NCBI RefSeq assembly: GCF_014698235.1
Contig: NZ_JACJSP010000008.1
Coordinates: 62,001-126,000 of the forward strand
Direction: 5' to 3'
DNA length: 64,000 bases
Source of the DNA: Limnothrix sp. FACHB-406
Lineage (GTDB): Bacteria; Cyanobacteriota; Cyanobacteriia; CACIAM-69d
The notes beneath the pieces are model-generated. The model did no database searches, was not told where the DNA came from, and worked only from the letters and a program-made list of their open reading frames with translations. Shown here piece after piece: positions 17,773 to 25,915 of this stretch. Within the stretch, counting starts at the first letter, position 1; each line of letters begins with the position of its first letter. Position numbers and translations under genes: made by a program.

Positions 17773-18354
17773 CTAACGATTGAGCCGATCGAGGGCGAGA
17801 TTCAGCTTCAGCACATTCACCCCCGGCTCGCCAAACAGATTCAGGAACGGGCGATCGGTGGCTTGGTCAATCAGGCTCCGCAGTTGGTCGGGAGTGACTT
17901 GCCGGGCGCGGGCTACCCGATCGAGCTGGGCGATCGCGCTGGCGGGGCTGATGTGCGGATCCAAACCAGAGCCGGAACTGTAGAGCAAATCGCCCGTGGG
18001 TTCGATGCCGGCCTGTTGGAGGCGCTGTTTTTCCGTGGCGATCCGTTCCGCGAGGGCCGGGTTGGTGGGGGCCAGGTTGCTTGCGCCAGAGATGCCGGTT
18101 TTGGCCACCTGGGGATCGGTGCTGTAGGCGATCGCGCTGGGGCGGGGCCAAAAGTAGCGATCGCTCGTGAAGGGCTGACCAATCAGGGCTGACCCGATCG
18201 CCTGACCTTGAGCATTCGTTAGCAAGCTGCCATTGGCCTGGAACGGCAGGGCCGCCCCCGCCAGCAACAAAATCACCGGGTAAATCACCGCCGTCAACAA
18301 CCACAGGGCCGCCGACAGTCGCAGCGATCGCCCCATTTCGCGTAGGAAGTCCAT
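17773..18354 (-). CDS. kdpC: Potassium-transporting ATPase subunit C
   Basis: 193-residue periplasm-facing accessory subunit of the Kdp K+ pump, with one N-terminal membrane helix (LSAALWLLTAVIYPVILLLAG). Family landmarks include ANGSLL, GSALIGQPFTSDRYFWPRPSA, and near the C-terminus DPHISPASAIAQLDRVARAR followed by VNVLKLNLALD. It starts three bases after the small upstream subunit gene, consistent with translational coupling. No kdpD-type gene follows, unlike Anabaena-type kdp operons. Confidence 0.95.
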   Translation of the reverse strand: MDFLREMGRSLRLSAALWLLTAVIYPVILLLAGAALPFQANGSLLTNAQGQAIGSALIGQPFTSDRYFWPRPSAIAYSTDPQVAKTGISGASNLAPTNPALAERIATEKQRLQQAGIEPTGDLLYSSGSGLDPHISPASAIAQLDRVARARQVTPDQLRSLIDQATDRPFLNLFGEPGVNVLKLNLALDRLNR

Positions 18355-18357
18355 GAT

Positions 18358-18612
18358 CTAAAACCGCTCCGGTTGAAAAATCGCCACGAACAGATAAATC
18401 GACAGGGCAATGGTGGCCAGGCCCAACAGGGCGATCGCCCCCAGTTGGCCGCTGTTCAGGGGGGCTTGGCCCGTAGCGGCGGCCGTGGCCGGGGCGATCG
18501 CGGCGAGGGCGGCGAGCCAAGCCAGGCCCCAGCGCAGGCTCCAGCGCACCCAAGGCGTGAGGCGGCGATCGGGCGATCGATCCGGTGCTGAATGGTGCAA
18601 CAGGGTTTTCAT
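18358..18612 (-). CDS. kdpF: Small Kdp subunit, KdpF/KdpG-like
   Basis: 84 residues with two membrane segments. The last one, LLGLATIALSIYLFVAIFQPERF, ends in the YLxxAxxxPERF signature of KdpF, the single-helix stabilising subunit of KdpFABC. The extra N-terminal helix and basic leader match the longer small gene (called kdpG in Anabaena) found between kdpB and kdpC in cyanobacteria. Its position here, after kdpB and three bases before kdpC, is the cyanobacterial order. Confidence 0.85.
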   Translation of the reverse strand: MKTLLHHSAPDRSPDRRLTPWVRWSLRWGLAWLAALAAIAPATAAATGQAPLNSGQLGAIALLGLATIALSIYLFVAIFQPERF

Positions 18613-18783: not shown

Positions 18784-20874
<2,091 letters not shown>

Positions 20875-20930: not shown

Positions 20931-20950
20931 CAAGGGGCTTAAGCCCCTTG
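20931..20950. repeat. Perfect 20-bp palindrome caaggggcttaagccccttg
   Basis: A self-complementary 20-mer just upstream of kdpB. An identical copy is at 51077-51096 and a degenerate one at 57267-57286, so this is the core of a dispersed repeat family. Confidence 0.9.
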
Positions 20951-21058
20951 TCTTCAACGGTTTCGGGATAGTGAAATCAGGGTCTTGGGAAATAGGGAGC
21001 GACCTAACGCAGGGCAAATCCTTCGGCAATCAGCCCCAGGGTCAACACCAGAAAAGCG
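20946..21058 (-). pseudogene. Decayed duplicate of the kdpA 3' end
   Basis: About 113 bp here align with 22111-22224, which spans the 3' end of the intact kdpA plus its downstream flank. On the minus strand this copy still reads [13 protein letters not shown] followed by TAG, the kdpA C-terminus with a few substitutions (intact copy: [13 protein letters not shown]). I count roughly a dozen mismatches and one indel. The upstream kdpA sequence is missing. It therefore marks one border of the FkbM cassette that separates kdpA from kdpB. Confidence 0.88.
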
Positions 21059-21225
21059 GACTTACCGAGAAAGCAGGCTTACTGAGAGCGCGAACTTAAA
21101 GAAAACTTAATTACTAAAACCAAAGTTTTTAGTAGTGCCTTAAGTAATGACAAAGTAGTAAAATTTTGTGACCCAAGTGATTAACTATCAAAAAAATTAT
21201 TATCTCACAAATTTTGTCGAGGTCT

Positions 21226-21951
21226 TCAATTATGAGATGCAATTAAAGTTGGACCAACCTTAGCCTCAACCTTATACCCTTGACCAACCATGTATCTAAA
21301 CACTGGATGCTGAAGGGGCTTAGAGAAATCAAATCCATGAGCTTCTACAAGAAGAATTTTCGGGCAAAATCGTTGAATATCAAATGACCACAAAATTTCC
21401 TCATCTAGACCCTCACAATCGATATCCAGGATATCTATTGATTGTTTAGGGGGAAGATATTGGTCAAGAATTGAGTTGAGTGTTCGCATTTCAATTAATC
21501 TTGATCCCAGGTAGTGAAATCCTGAGTCTTTAAATCCCTGAGCCATAGCATCGGAGAATGTGTTAACTGCACCATCAGAAAACATATGTAATTTTTCAAG
21601 GCCACATGTGTTTCCTACGCCAAAATTCAAATTAATATCTCTTGGTCTTGCAGACTCAAATAAAGCAATGGAGTGGGGGTTAGGATCAATGTTAATTCCC
21701 TTCCAGCCGACATTGTACAAGAAGTTTGTGTTTGAGTAGAGAGATGGGTGAAACGCTCCAACATCTACATAAAAACCAGGACACCTAATATCAATACTTA
21801 ATACTGACAGTAAATGCCTTAGAACAGCATCTTCACCACATTGAGAGTAACTGTTATAGTGCTGCATTGATTTTAATATCCAGAAAAAGTTTTTGATTAG
21901 TAGCAGTGAGCTACAAAAACACTCAAACACTTCTTTTATTTTAGCACTCAT
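21226..21951 (-). CDS. FkbM-family SAM-dependent methyltransferase
   Basis: 241 residues. The core YSQCGEDAVLRHLL, GFYVDVGAFHPSLYSNT, GWKGINIDPNPHSIALF and DILDIDCEGLDEEIL is the FkbM methyltransferase pattern (SAM site at VDVGAFHP, acidic loop at INIDPNP). These enzymes O-methylate sugars or polyketides, often in surface polysaccharide loci. The gene is far more AT-rich than its kdp neighbours and lies between kdpA and kdpB in the same direction, flanked by direct repeats of the kdpA 3' end. It is therefore an insertion; it may be transcribed with the kdp operon. A nonpolar stretch near residues 10-27 (CSSLLLIKNFFWILK) could be a weak membrane contact. Confidence 0.85.
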   Translation of the reverse strand: MSAKIKEVFECFCSSLLLIKNFFWILKSMQHYNSYSQCGEDAVLRHLLSVLSIDIRCPGFYVDVGAFHPSLYSNTNFLYNVGWKGINIDPNPHSIALFESARPRDINLNFGVGNTCGLEKLHMFSDGAVNTFSDAMAQGFKDSGFHYLGSRLIEMRTLNSILDQYLPPKQSIDILDIDCEGLDEEILWSFDIQRFCPKILLVEAHGFDFSKPLQHPVFRYMVGQGYKVEAKVGPTLIASHN

Positions 21952-22110
21952 GATGATCAGGAGTCATGAAATTGAATTGAGAGCAAAATAGGCATTCATG
22001 AGGCAAAAGCAAAATTATTTATTATCACAAAATATACTTTATTGTGACAAATTAGTTTGTGCAAAAAAGTTCTGTTTTAATTGAAGACTTTAAAGCCGTT
22101 AGATAAAATT

Positions 22111-22224
22111 CCTTGTCTTCAACGGTTTCGGGATCGTGGAATCAGGGTCTTGGGAAATTACGAAGCGACCTAACGCAGGGCGAATCCTTCGGCGATCGGC
22201 CCCAGGGCCAACACCGGGAAAAAG
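22111..22224. repeat. Direct repeat B: kdpA 3' end and downstream flank
   Basis: Partner of 20946-21058. It contains the authentic last codons and stop of kdpA plus about 60 bp of downstream DNA. The two copies lie in the same orientation, about 1.05 kb apart, and bracket the AT-rich FkbM segment. Confidence 0.88.
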
Positions 22225-23810
22225 GTCAACAAGCCCAAAATCAAAATCGTTACGCCCGTCACCGTCGTGAACAAAAACGTGTCCGTGCGGAGCGTGCCCG
22301 AGGTGGCCGGAGCCGGTTGCTTTTGGGCCATGCCGTCCGCCAGCAACAGCAACGCCGCGATCGGCAGGTAGCGCCCCGCCAAAATGCTGACCGTTGCCGA
22401 CAGGTTCCACCACAGTGTCCCGTCACCCAAGCCCTCAAAGCCCGAGCCATTGTTGGCCGCTGCCGAGGCGTATTCATAAATCACCTGGGAAACCCCGTGG
22501 AAGCCGGGGTTGGAAATGCCCGCCAATTGCTCCGGAAAGGCCAGGGCGATCGCCCCGGGAATCAACACAAACACCGGGTGAACCAGCAAGATCGCACTGG
22601 CCAAAATGATTTCCCGTTTTTCGATTTTGCGGCCTAGGAATTCCGGCGTGCGACCCACCATCAAGCCGGTTAAAAACACCGTCAAAATCAGGAACACATA
22701 CAGATAAGCCGTGCCAGTGCCTTGGCCGCCCCAAACCATCTGCAAAAACAAACCCAGCAAGGTGGCCAAACCACTCCCCGGCATCAGGGAATCATGCATT
22801 CCATTCACAGCGCCGCACATGGTGGCCGTGGTGGTGACTGCCCAAAGAGCCGTTTGGGCCCAACCAAAGCGCTGTTCTTTGCCTTCCAAGTTGGGGCCAG
22901 GAGCCAGGGTCGGGTTGCCTTGCCACTCTGCGATCGCACTGAGGGCAATTAAGCCCACAAAAATGCTGCCCACCAAGCCAAATAACCACCAAGCTTGTCG
23001 CCGATTTTGGCTGATTTCCCCATAGGTAAAAATCAACCCCACGGGAATTAGCAACATCGCCACAATTTCTAAACTATTGGTGAAATTGTTGGGATTTTCA
23101 AAGGGGTGAGCGGAGTTAATGGCAAAGAATCCGCCGCCGTTTTCCCCCAGTTGTTTAATCGCTTCAAAGTGGGCCACGGGGCCGCGGGCGATCGCCTGGG
23201 TTGTCCCTTCCAAGGTGCTAGCCATTGCTGGCCCAGCTAGGGTTTCCGGCGCACCATTCAGCAACAGCAACAGGGCGATCGGGATCGACAGGGGCAACAA
23301 CACCCGCGTGATCGATCGCGTCAAATCCCGATAGAAATTGCCCAAGGGTTGCCCACTTAGGCCGCGAATAAACGCGATCCCCACGGCCAGCCCCGTGGCC
23401 GCCGAGAAGAACATCAAGTAGCCCAAAATTCCCACTTGGGAACCGTAGCTAATCGCCGTTTCGCCCGAGTAATGTTGCTGGTCGGTGTTGGTTAGAAAGG
23501 AGACGATCGTATGCACCGCCAAGTCCCAACTGGGCGCACCCACACCCGTGGGATTCAGGGGCAAGCGGTCTTGCAGCCAAAACCCGCCAAACCCCACTAG
23601 AGCGATCGCCAAGTTACTGGCCAACACCGCCCGCAGATATTGCCCGCCGGTCATCGGCTCATCGGTGCGGTGGCGAATTTGCCGGTATAGCCAGCGTTCG
23701 GGCAGCCAGTCCGGCCCTTGGAATACCCGCGCCATGTAGCGCCCTAAAAATGGGGCGATCGCCCCCACGATCAACAACGTCAGGGCAATTTGCAACCAGC
23801 CCGATAGCAT
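22170..23810 (-). CDS. kdpA: Potassium-transporting ATPase subunit A
   Basis: K+-translocating subunit of KdpFABC, about 546 residues with ten or so membrane segments and the SKT/Trk-like selectivity loops (e.g. [64 protein letters not shown]). The frame is open to 23936, but [14 protein letters not shown] at 23810 is the normal KdpA beginning. It is the first gene of the kdp operon; the promoter should be in the divergent region with the kinase gene. Its 3' end is duplicated at 20946-21058. Confidence 0.95.
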
Positions 23811-23978
23811 AAAGACCCGATCCACTCGATCGGACGAAAGACCAGACCCCCATCCACCCGATCGCGGGCGCTGGGGAATCCTCTCAATCGTCGGGCGATC
23901 GCCCCGCATCCGCCATCTATCAATCGGTCTAAACATCCGGCCTAGGCGATCGTCGATCTATACCAACCGTTTAGTCCT

Positions 23979-24120: not shown

Positions 24121-25245
24121 ATGACTCGGCGATCGACCCCATCAGTTCCCTTGGCCCGGCAACGGGTTTGGATCGGCAGCGCCACGGTGCTTTGGACGGT
24201 GCTGGCGATCGCCGCTGAATTTTTGACCCCCACCGATTACGTGTTGGGCTATTTATATGTAGTTCCGGTCGGGCTGGTGGGGGCCTATGGCCGGCCCAAA
24301 ACCACCATGGTCGTCACCCTGGGGGCGATCGGGCTGGTGTTGCTCAACCTGTGGGTGCCGGCCGGGGCGATGGGTTCACCGGCCGCCATCACCAATCGGT
24401 TATTGGTTTGTTTGGCCCTGTTGGTCACGGCCCTGTTGAGCGATCGGGCCCGGCGCGATCGCACCCGGCTGGCTCAACAACAGGCCCAACTGGCCGCCCA
24501 AAGCCAGCTCGCCCAACTGCGCGAAGACTTTGCCGCCACCTTGACCCACGACCTGAAAACGCCGCTACTTGGGGCGATCGCCACCCTGGAAGCCTTCCAA
24601 GCCCAACAACTGGGCCCCGCCACCGAACAACAGCAACAGGTGTTGGCAGTGATGTTACGCAGTCATCGCAACAGCTTGCGCCTGCTGGAAAGCGTCCTGG
24701 AAATTTATCGCAACGACGCGGAAGGGGTCTTGCTTGATCGCCAGCCTTGGGAGTTGGGAGAGTTGGCGGAACGGGCGATCGCGCCGTTGCGGGTGTTGGC
24801 GGCGGGGCGGCGCGTCACGATTCGGCTGGAGCGCGGCGATTCGGGCTTTTGGGCCAGCTTTTGGGTGGCAGCCGATGCCTTGCAGTTGGAACGGGCGATC
24901 GATAATTTGCTGCTGAATGCCCTCAACCACGCGCCGCGCGACTCGCAAATTTTGGTGCAGTTGCGATCGCTCGGGTCTTGCCATCGGCTGGAAGTTTCTG
25001 ATTCGGGCCCCGGGATTCCCCCGGCGGCGCTGCCCAAGCTGTTCGATCGGTTCTATCAAGCGGGCAGCGATCGCCAGCTCACCGGCTCGGGGTTGGGTCT
25101 TTATCTCAGCCGCCAAATCATCGAAGCCCACGGCGGTAGAATCTGGGCAGAGAATCGATCGCCCCAAGGCGCAACCTTCCTGGTGGAGCTGGCCGCTTGT
25201 CCTCCGCCAATTACCCCCGCAGTCCATGCAAATTCTGCTGATTGA
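24121..25245 (+). CDS. Membrane sensor histidine kinase, divergent from kdp
   Basis: 374 residues. Four or so N-terminal membrane segments (about residues 15-110), a short coiled coil, then a HisKA domain with the phospho-acceptor histidine in DFAATLTHDLKTPLLG and an HATPase domain (N-box DNLLLNALNHA, G1 DSGPGIPP, G2 GSGLGLYLSRQIIEAHGG). The membrane arrangement resembles the four-helix sensor part of KdpD, but the large N-terminal KdpD/USP domains are missing. It overlaps the response regulator gene by 20 bp. Regulation of kdp is an inference from position. Confidence 0.88.
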   Translation: MTRRSTPSVPLARQRVWIGSATVLWTVLAIAAEFLTPTDYVLGYLYVVPVGLVGAYGRPKTTMVVTLGAIGLVLLNLWVPAGAMGSPAAITNRLLVCLALLVTALLSDRARRDRTRLAQQQAQLAAQSQLAQLREDFAATLTHDLKTPLLGAIATLEAFQAQQLGPATEQQQQVLAVMLRSHRNSLRLLESVLEIYRNDAEGVLLDRQPWELGELAERAIAPLRVLAAGRRVTIRLERGDSGFWASFWVAADALQLERAIDNLLLNALNHAPRDSQILVQLRSLGSCHRLEVSDSGPGIPPAALPKLFDRFYQAGSDRQLTGSGLGLYLSRQIIEAHGGRIWAENRSPQGATFLVELAACPPPITPAVHANSAD

Positions 25246-25915
25246 AGACGACGAGCTATTTCGCCTGGGGCTGACGATCCGGCTCCAGCAGGAAGCCGAT
25301 TGGCAGGTGGCGGCGGCGGCCGATGGCGAACAGGCGATCGAGCTGGCGCGCCAACAATGTTTTGATGTGGCACTGCTGGATATTGGGTTGCCGGGGCTAG
25401 GCGGCGTGGAAACCTGTCGGCAACTGGTGCAGATTCAGCCCGCTTTGCCCGTGTTGGTTCTCACCTCCCGTGCTGAACCCGACGCGATCGCCCGGTTGGT
25501 GGCCGCCGGAGCACGCGGCTATTGTCGCAAGGGGATCAGCGCCGAAACGTTGATTCTGGCGATGCGATCGATCGCCGCCGGGGCCTCCTGGTGGGATGAC
25601 CTGGCCACCAGCCAAATCCAAGCGGCCATGGCTCAATCGGGGGAATCTAGCGTTTCCAAAACCGTCACGAGTCGGGGCGATCGCCTGGCCACGGGGGCGA
25701 TCGAGGAACTCACCCACCGGGAACAGGAAATTTTGCATCTGATTGCTCAAGGCCAAAGCAACCAAGACATTGCCCAAACCTTACACATTGCCCCCGGCAC
25801 GGTGCGGGTGCATGTCCATGCCATCTTGCAAAAACTGGGCGTGCGCGATCGCACTCAAGCCGTAGTTCACCTCTTGCAACACCAAGCGCCGATGGGCGAT
25901 CGCGCCATCTCCTAG
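25226..25915 (+). CDS. NarL/FixJ-family response regulator
   Basis: 229 residues. An N-terminal receiver domain (MQILLIEDDELFRLG with the acidic pocket, phospho-acceptor Asp in VALLDIGLPG, Lys in YCRKGIS) and a C-terminal LuxR-type helix-turn-helix (LTHREQEILHLIAQGQSNQDIAQTLHIAPGTVRVHVHAIL). ATG 25226 lies inside the end of the kinase gene, so the two are translationally coupled. KdpE proteins are OmpR-type, so this is not KdpE even though it neighbours kdp. Confidence 0.92.
   Translation: MQILLIEDDELFRLGLTIRLQQEADWQVAAAADGEQAIELARQQCFDVALLDIGLPGLGGVETCRQLVQIQPALPVLVLTSRAEPDAIARLVAAGARGYCRKGISAETLILAMRSIAAGASWWDDLATSQIQAAMAQSGESSVSKTVTSRGDRLATGAIEELTHREQEILHLIAQGQSNQDIAQTLHIAPGTVRVHVHAILQKLGVRDRTQAVVHLLQHQAPMGDRAIS

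Follow-up and report, generated by a model that had tools for sequence, protein, structure and literature searches.

An FkbM-family methyltransferase gene of apparently foreign origin separates kdpA from kdpB in Limnothrix sp. FACHB-406 and is flanked by a duplicated kdpA 3' end

In the 64,000-nucleotide stretch of Limnothrix sp. FACHB-406 DNA analysed here (contig NZ_JACJSP010000008.1, positions 62,001 to 126,000; the window), the kdp genes kdpA and kdpB are separated by a gene of the FkbM methyltransferase family. The gene order on the minus strand is kdpA, FkbM-family gene, kdpB, all in the same orientation, and the following features were assigned in window coordinates:

22170-23936, minus strand: kdpA, complete (PF03814, E = 4.8e-217, model positions 2-548)
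22111-22221, minus strand: repeat copy A, on the kdpA side, comprising the final 52 nt of kdpA followed by about 59 bp of 3' flank
22050-22021, minus strand: promoter-like site TTGTCA-18-GATAAT, a consensus match only, about 70 bp upstream of the FkbM start
21056-22110, no strand assigned: insert, 1,055 bp, 35.3% GC, free of CGATCG sites
21226-21951, minus strand: FkbM-family methyltransferase gene, 241 amino acids (PF05050, E = 1.6e-18, 67.8 bits, model positions 1-172 of 173)
20946-21055, minus strand: repeat copy B, on the kdpB side, consisting of a decayed kdpA end at 21004-21055 (stop at 21004-21006) and flank
20932-20949, no strand assigned: 18-bp palindrome AAGGGGCTTAAGCCCCTT, inside which the homology between copies A and B ends, at 20946
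18784-20874, minus strand: kdpB (P-type ATPase domains; 97% amino acid identity to kdpB of the congener G001)
18358-18612, minus strand: kdpF-like ORF (PF09604, E = 8.9e-10)
17773-18354, minus strand: kdpC (PF02669, E = 8.2e-62)

An earlier note on this DNA had placed kdpA and kdpB about 1.3 kb apart, with the FkbM gene in the direction of the operon, which is in agreement with the 1,307 bp measured from one protein match to the other and with the common minus-strand orientation of the three genes. Its description of the operon as essential-looking, however, is not supported, since kdpA occurs in only 175 of 390 genomes of the class and is missing from a second congener, G002. The likely true start of kdpA is at 23810 (MLSGWLQ...), and close homology to the gene of G001 begins near residue 38-43. 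Genes for a sensor histidine kinase and a LuxR-type response regulator are located at 24121-25915 on the plus strand, divergent from kdpA. By the NCBIfam cut-off the kinase is not KdpD (109 versus 1123 bits), and the pair possibly constitutes a different regulator of kdp.

Alignment of repeat copies A and B with blastn gave 100 identities in 111 columns (90%) with one gap (E = 4e-40). The earlier note had described direct repeats of 113 bp bracketing the gene and had staked its reading on their aligning over more than about 50 bp; the repeats are real at the positions given above and far exceed that length, although they extend over 111 columns and not 113. A faulty assembly that joined unrelated sequence between near-identical ends can practically be dismissed, given that the two copies are about 10% divergent and that the insert, which occurs once in the assembly, is embedded in a 161-kb contig. 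Copy B still reads 13 amino acids of the kdpA end followed by a stop, ahead of kdpB. Where the kdpA parts of the two copies differ, G001 has the copy A base at every site except one, and over the 52 positions of the kdpA end the mismatches to G001 amount to about 5 for copy B and 1 for copy A. Because G001 matches copy A in this way, copy B reads as the free-running copy, an orphan kdpA end that, judging from its substitutions, appears to have decayed without selection since the event. Both the sequence and the G001 comparison thus uphold the earlier distinction between the true kdpA end and its decayed duplicate, which still reads to its stop just before kdpB.

The insert between the repeats differs in composition from its surroundings. 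Its GC content of 35.3% contrasts with 55.4% for the window, it holds no CGATCG site whereas the window has 421, and no other island in a list that runs up to the last, end-of-window interval is as long or as AT-rich. Similarly, the GC3 of the FkbM gene is 0.31, compared to 0.70 for kdpA and 0.79 for kdpB. This AT-rich composition, together with the lack of any relative of the gene in the congeners and family members examined, bears out the earlier proposal that foreign cargo lies between kdpA and kdpB. The only intact ORF of the insert is the FkbM gene at 21226-21951; no integrase or recombinase ORF was found within the 1,055 bp, and the direct neighbours are kdp genes. A transposon or MITE was rejected as the source, because no inverted-repeat pair was found at the insert ends, no short target duplication at the insert (the flanking duplication amounts to about 110 bp) and no second copy of the insert in its own genome. 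A phage origin was also rejected, with no relative confirmed in viral contigs and one distant phage match at 32%, as was a plasmid origin, with only distant relatives (≤36% identity) among the matches listed.

The FkbM protein matches PF05050 over the full-length model with 67.8 bits, well above the cut-off of 22.7, but reaches 33.2 bits with the narrower NCBIfam model TIGR01444, below its cut-off of 37.7, and it is assigned to the Pfam family only. Because it keeps all 34 of the 34 positions that are ≥90% conserved in 37 relatives, the gene looks intact, in a comparison that favours agreement since part of these relatives were gathered with conserved peptide patterns of the protein itself. 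At E ≤ 1e-20, no relatives were found in G001, in the other congener or in three other family members examined, and among the 390 class genomes the nearest relatives are at most about 43% identical. A sequence comparison with solved structures gave no match for the protein at E ≤ 0.01. In Nodosilinea, Dolichospermum and an uncultured cyanobacterium, relatives adjoin genes for polysaccharide export or synthesis, encoding a Wzt-like ABC protein, an epimerase, a flippase, a pyruvyl transferase and a glycosyltransferase. Because of these neighbourhoods, methylation of a surface or exported (extracellular) glycan is the likeliest predicted role. The protein shares with the FkbM methyltransferases of polysaccharide clusters the full-length PF05050 domain and the 34 conserved positions; in contrast to them, however, its gene stands alone in a potassium-pump operon, and no relative in the 390 class genomes exceeds about 43% identity to it. 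With regard to expression, a weak promoter scan returned 7 sites in the region versus 3.4 ± 1.9 in shuffled sequences, an excess of about twofold, and no intrinsic terminator between the genes turned up in a likewise weak scan. Expression of the FkbM gene probably proceeds from its own putative promoter, by transcription together with kdp, or by both.

In order to polarise the arrangement, the junction was compared in relatives, as the earlier note had proposed. G001, the only congener found to have kdp genes, has a single kdpA end, lacks the FkbM gene and has its kdpB ATG about 260 bp past the kdpA stop. Its spacer diverges from that of FACHB-406 directly after the kdpA stop, and it represents an uninterrupted junction, not a base-exact empty site. 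In the cyanobacterial class, the median kdpA-kdpB gap, measured from one protein match to the next, is 115 bp in at least 128 operons (119 genomes) paired from the matches listed, where some weaker ones are missing, and the 1,307 bp of FACHB-406 are the largest value. No convincing remnant of a kdpA end was found in 33 other kdpA-kdpB junctions examined. Because the G001 junction is short, because the gap is the largest of 128 and because congeners and family lack FkbM relatives, we consider it very probable that a foreign FkbM segment was inserted just downstream of kdpA and that the insertion is derived. The possibility raised by the earlier note that all close relatives share the arrangement ancestrally is countered by G001, which differs, and by the other genomes of the family and class examined, none of which shows it. 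It is therefore highly improbable that the arrangement is ancestral and that G001 lost the FkbM gene via recombination between the repeats: the divergence of about 10% between the copies is not small relative to that of the two species, which speaks for such a history, but a deletion of this kind would leave one whole repeat, and G001, which lacks the flank half, is for this reason not simply the deletion product of the FACHB-406 state.

At fourfold sites of kdpA and kdpB, the divergence between FACHB-406 and G001 amounts to 17-18%, whereas repeat copies A and B differ by about 10%. Because the latter value is below the former, the event would date from about the time at which the two species separated or from later, without being very recent, a rough estimate given the short length of the repeats. 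A GC-rich motif, CCACCGGGCAT...TCAGGGATCGTG..., recurs in the kdpA-kdpB spacer of G001 (L076, 5080-5300) and does not resemble the flank in FACHB-406.

With regard to the route of entry, the analysis revealed no integrase, transposase, terminal inverted repeat or short target duplication, which makes homology-assisted illegitimate recombination or a template switch the likeliest. In this lineage, the foreign FkbM segment would have landed immediately downstream of kdpA, and the event would have duplicated about 110 bp (kdpA 3' end plus flank), leaving kdpA whole and an orphan end upstream of kdpB. Homology in the kdpA 3' end or its flank may have anchored one end of the incoming DNA while the other was joined illegitimately; alternatively, a replication fork stalled at the palindrome may have changed template and resumed about 110 bp upstream. 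We favour with moderate confidence the complete statement, i.e., a foreign single-gene insertion with a duplication of about 110 bp that arose by either of these routes. Homology-facilitated illegitimate recombination would join one end by homology and the other without; a duplicated kdpA end was seen, while no donor and no exact empty site were found, G001 being the only congener with kdp genes. Precedents for anchoring one end by homology come from competent bacteria and from a proposal on the orphan 3' ends of Vibrio (PMC5361080, PMC2884548). The event, itself of a known kind, offers a readable case of a foreign gene that entered an operon without breaking it, as the duplicated gene end records both the insertion and its polarity.

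The same geometry, with the gene end restored, the displaced end on the far side and the cargo between direct repeats, would result from Campbell-type or site-specific integration of a circle that carried a kdpA 3' end, by a single crossover there and with later loss of the integrase. Integrases act at the 3' ends of tRNA genes and of some protein genes, and integrative elements at gene 3' ends include e14 at icd. Such elements likewise restore the gene end and leave a diverged duplicate on the far side; the present insert, however, lacks an integrase, is very small (1,055 bp) and carries a single cargo gene. This origin appears unlikely, since the insert has no integrase or recombinase ORF and no second copy in its own genome, and the 33 other junctions examined show no duplication of the kdpA end.

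Orphan-3'-end arrays (T6SS effector/immunity genes of V. cholerae, Rhs; PMC5361080) resemble the present locus in that new cargo lies behind a conserved gene and the displaced old 3' end downstream of it. They differ from it in that the cargo here is an unrelated methyltransferase, the remnant comprises only 52 coding nt and the receiver is a transporter subunit gene. As orphan 3' ends show this known pattern (PMC5361080), incoming DNA with the kdpA end, spacer and FkbM gene of another strain may have recombined in kdpA and been joined illegitimately in the resident end, whereby the functional end would be imported and the remnant native. The kdpA genes of FACHB-406 and G001 differ by 3.0% in the last 300 bp and by 6.5% over 1,650 bp, which could mark a recombined tract. 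However, such a displacement requires a donor with the FkbM gene already behind kdpA, and the 390 class genomes contain no close relative of that gene, so that we consider this alternative, too, rather improbable.

Exact AAGGGGCTTAAGCCCCTT sites occur 109 times in the FACHB-406 genome, 252 times in G001 and 281 times in G002, compared to 0 for the reversed control, and these palindromes form a repeat family dispersed through the three genomes, all of the same genus. The position of one copy at the edge of the duplication may be a coincidence.

Other kdpA-kdpB spacers of the class also hold genes. A 23S rRNA IVP gene lies antisense in the spacer of five genomes (G062, G195, G263, G268 and G375; L125-L129), in G062 and G195 with 8-bp tandem repeat arrays on both sides, and single spacers contain an HNH nuclease (G119, L124), a HicAB toxin-antitoxin pair (G300, L131) or a DUF2283 protein (G323, L130); the Pfam check of these genes covered one IVP representative and the HNH, HicAB and DUF2283 proteins. 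All share with the FACHB-406 locus a gene-bearing interruption of the same junction but are devoid of a duplicated kdpA end, some being flanked by 8-bp tandem arrays instead. The kdpB-kdpC gap, which holds kdpF, is often long as well (up to 2.3 kb; 103 operons), and we rejected kdpA-kdpB as a specific hot spot because it is not clearly special in this respect. Since other spacers hold genes and the kdpB-kdpC gap is often long, interruption of kdp operons reflects a general looseness in the class, not a special property of the kdpA-kdpB junction. It is quite doubtful that the kdpA 3' end and this junction form a recurrent landing site for small single-gene cassettes in cyanobacteria, with palindromic or octameric repeats as breakpoints; if they did, the pump operon would act as a loading dock whose cargo is expressed under potassium stress. 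That the kdp operon of the class accommodates different genes between those for its subunits is relevant to how operons remain functional while genes are gained. A literature search on cyanobacterial kdp operons surfaced no paper that describes insertions in them. In one further genome (G271, L139), kdpB is located upstream of kdpA, the reverse of the usual order.
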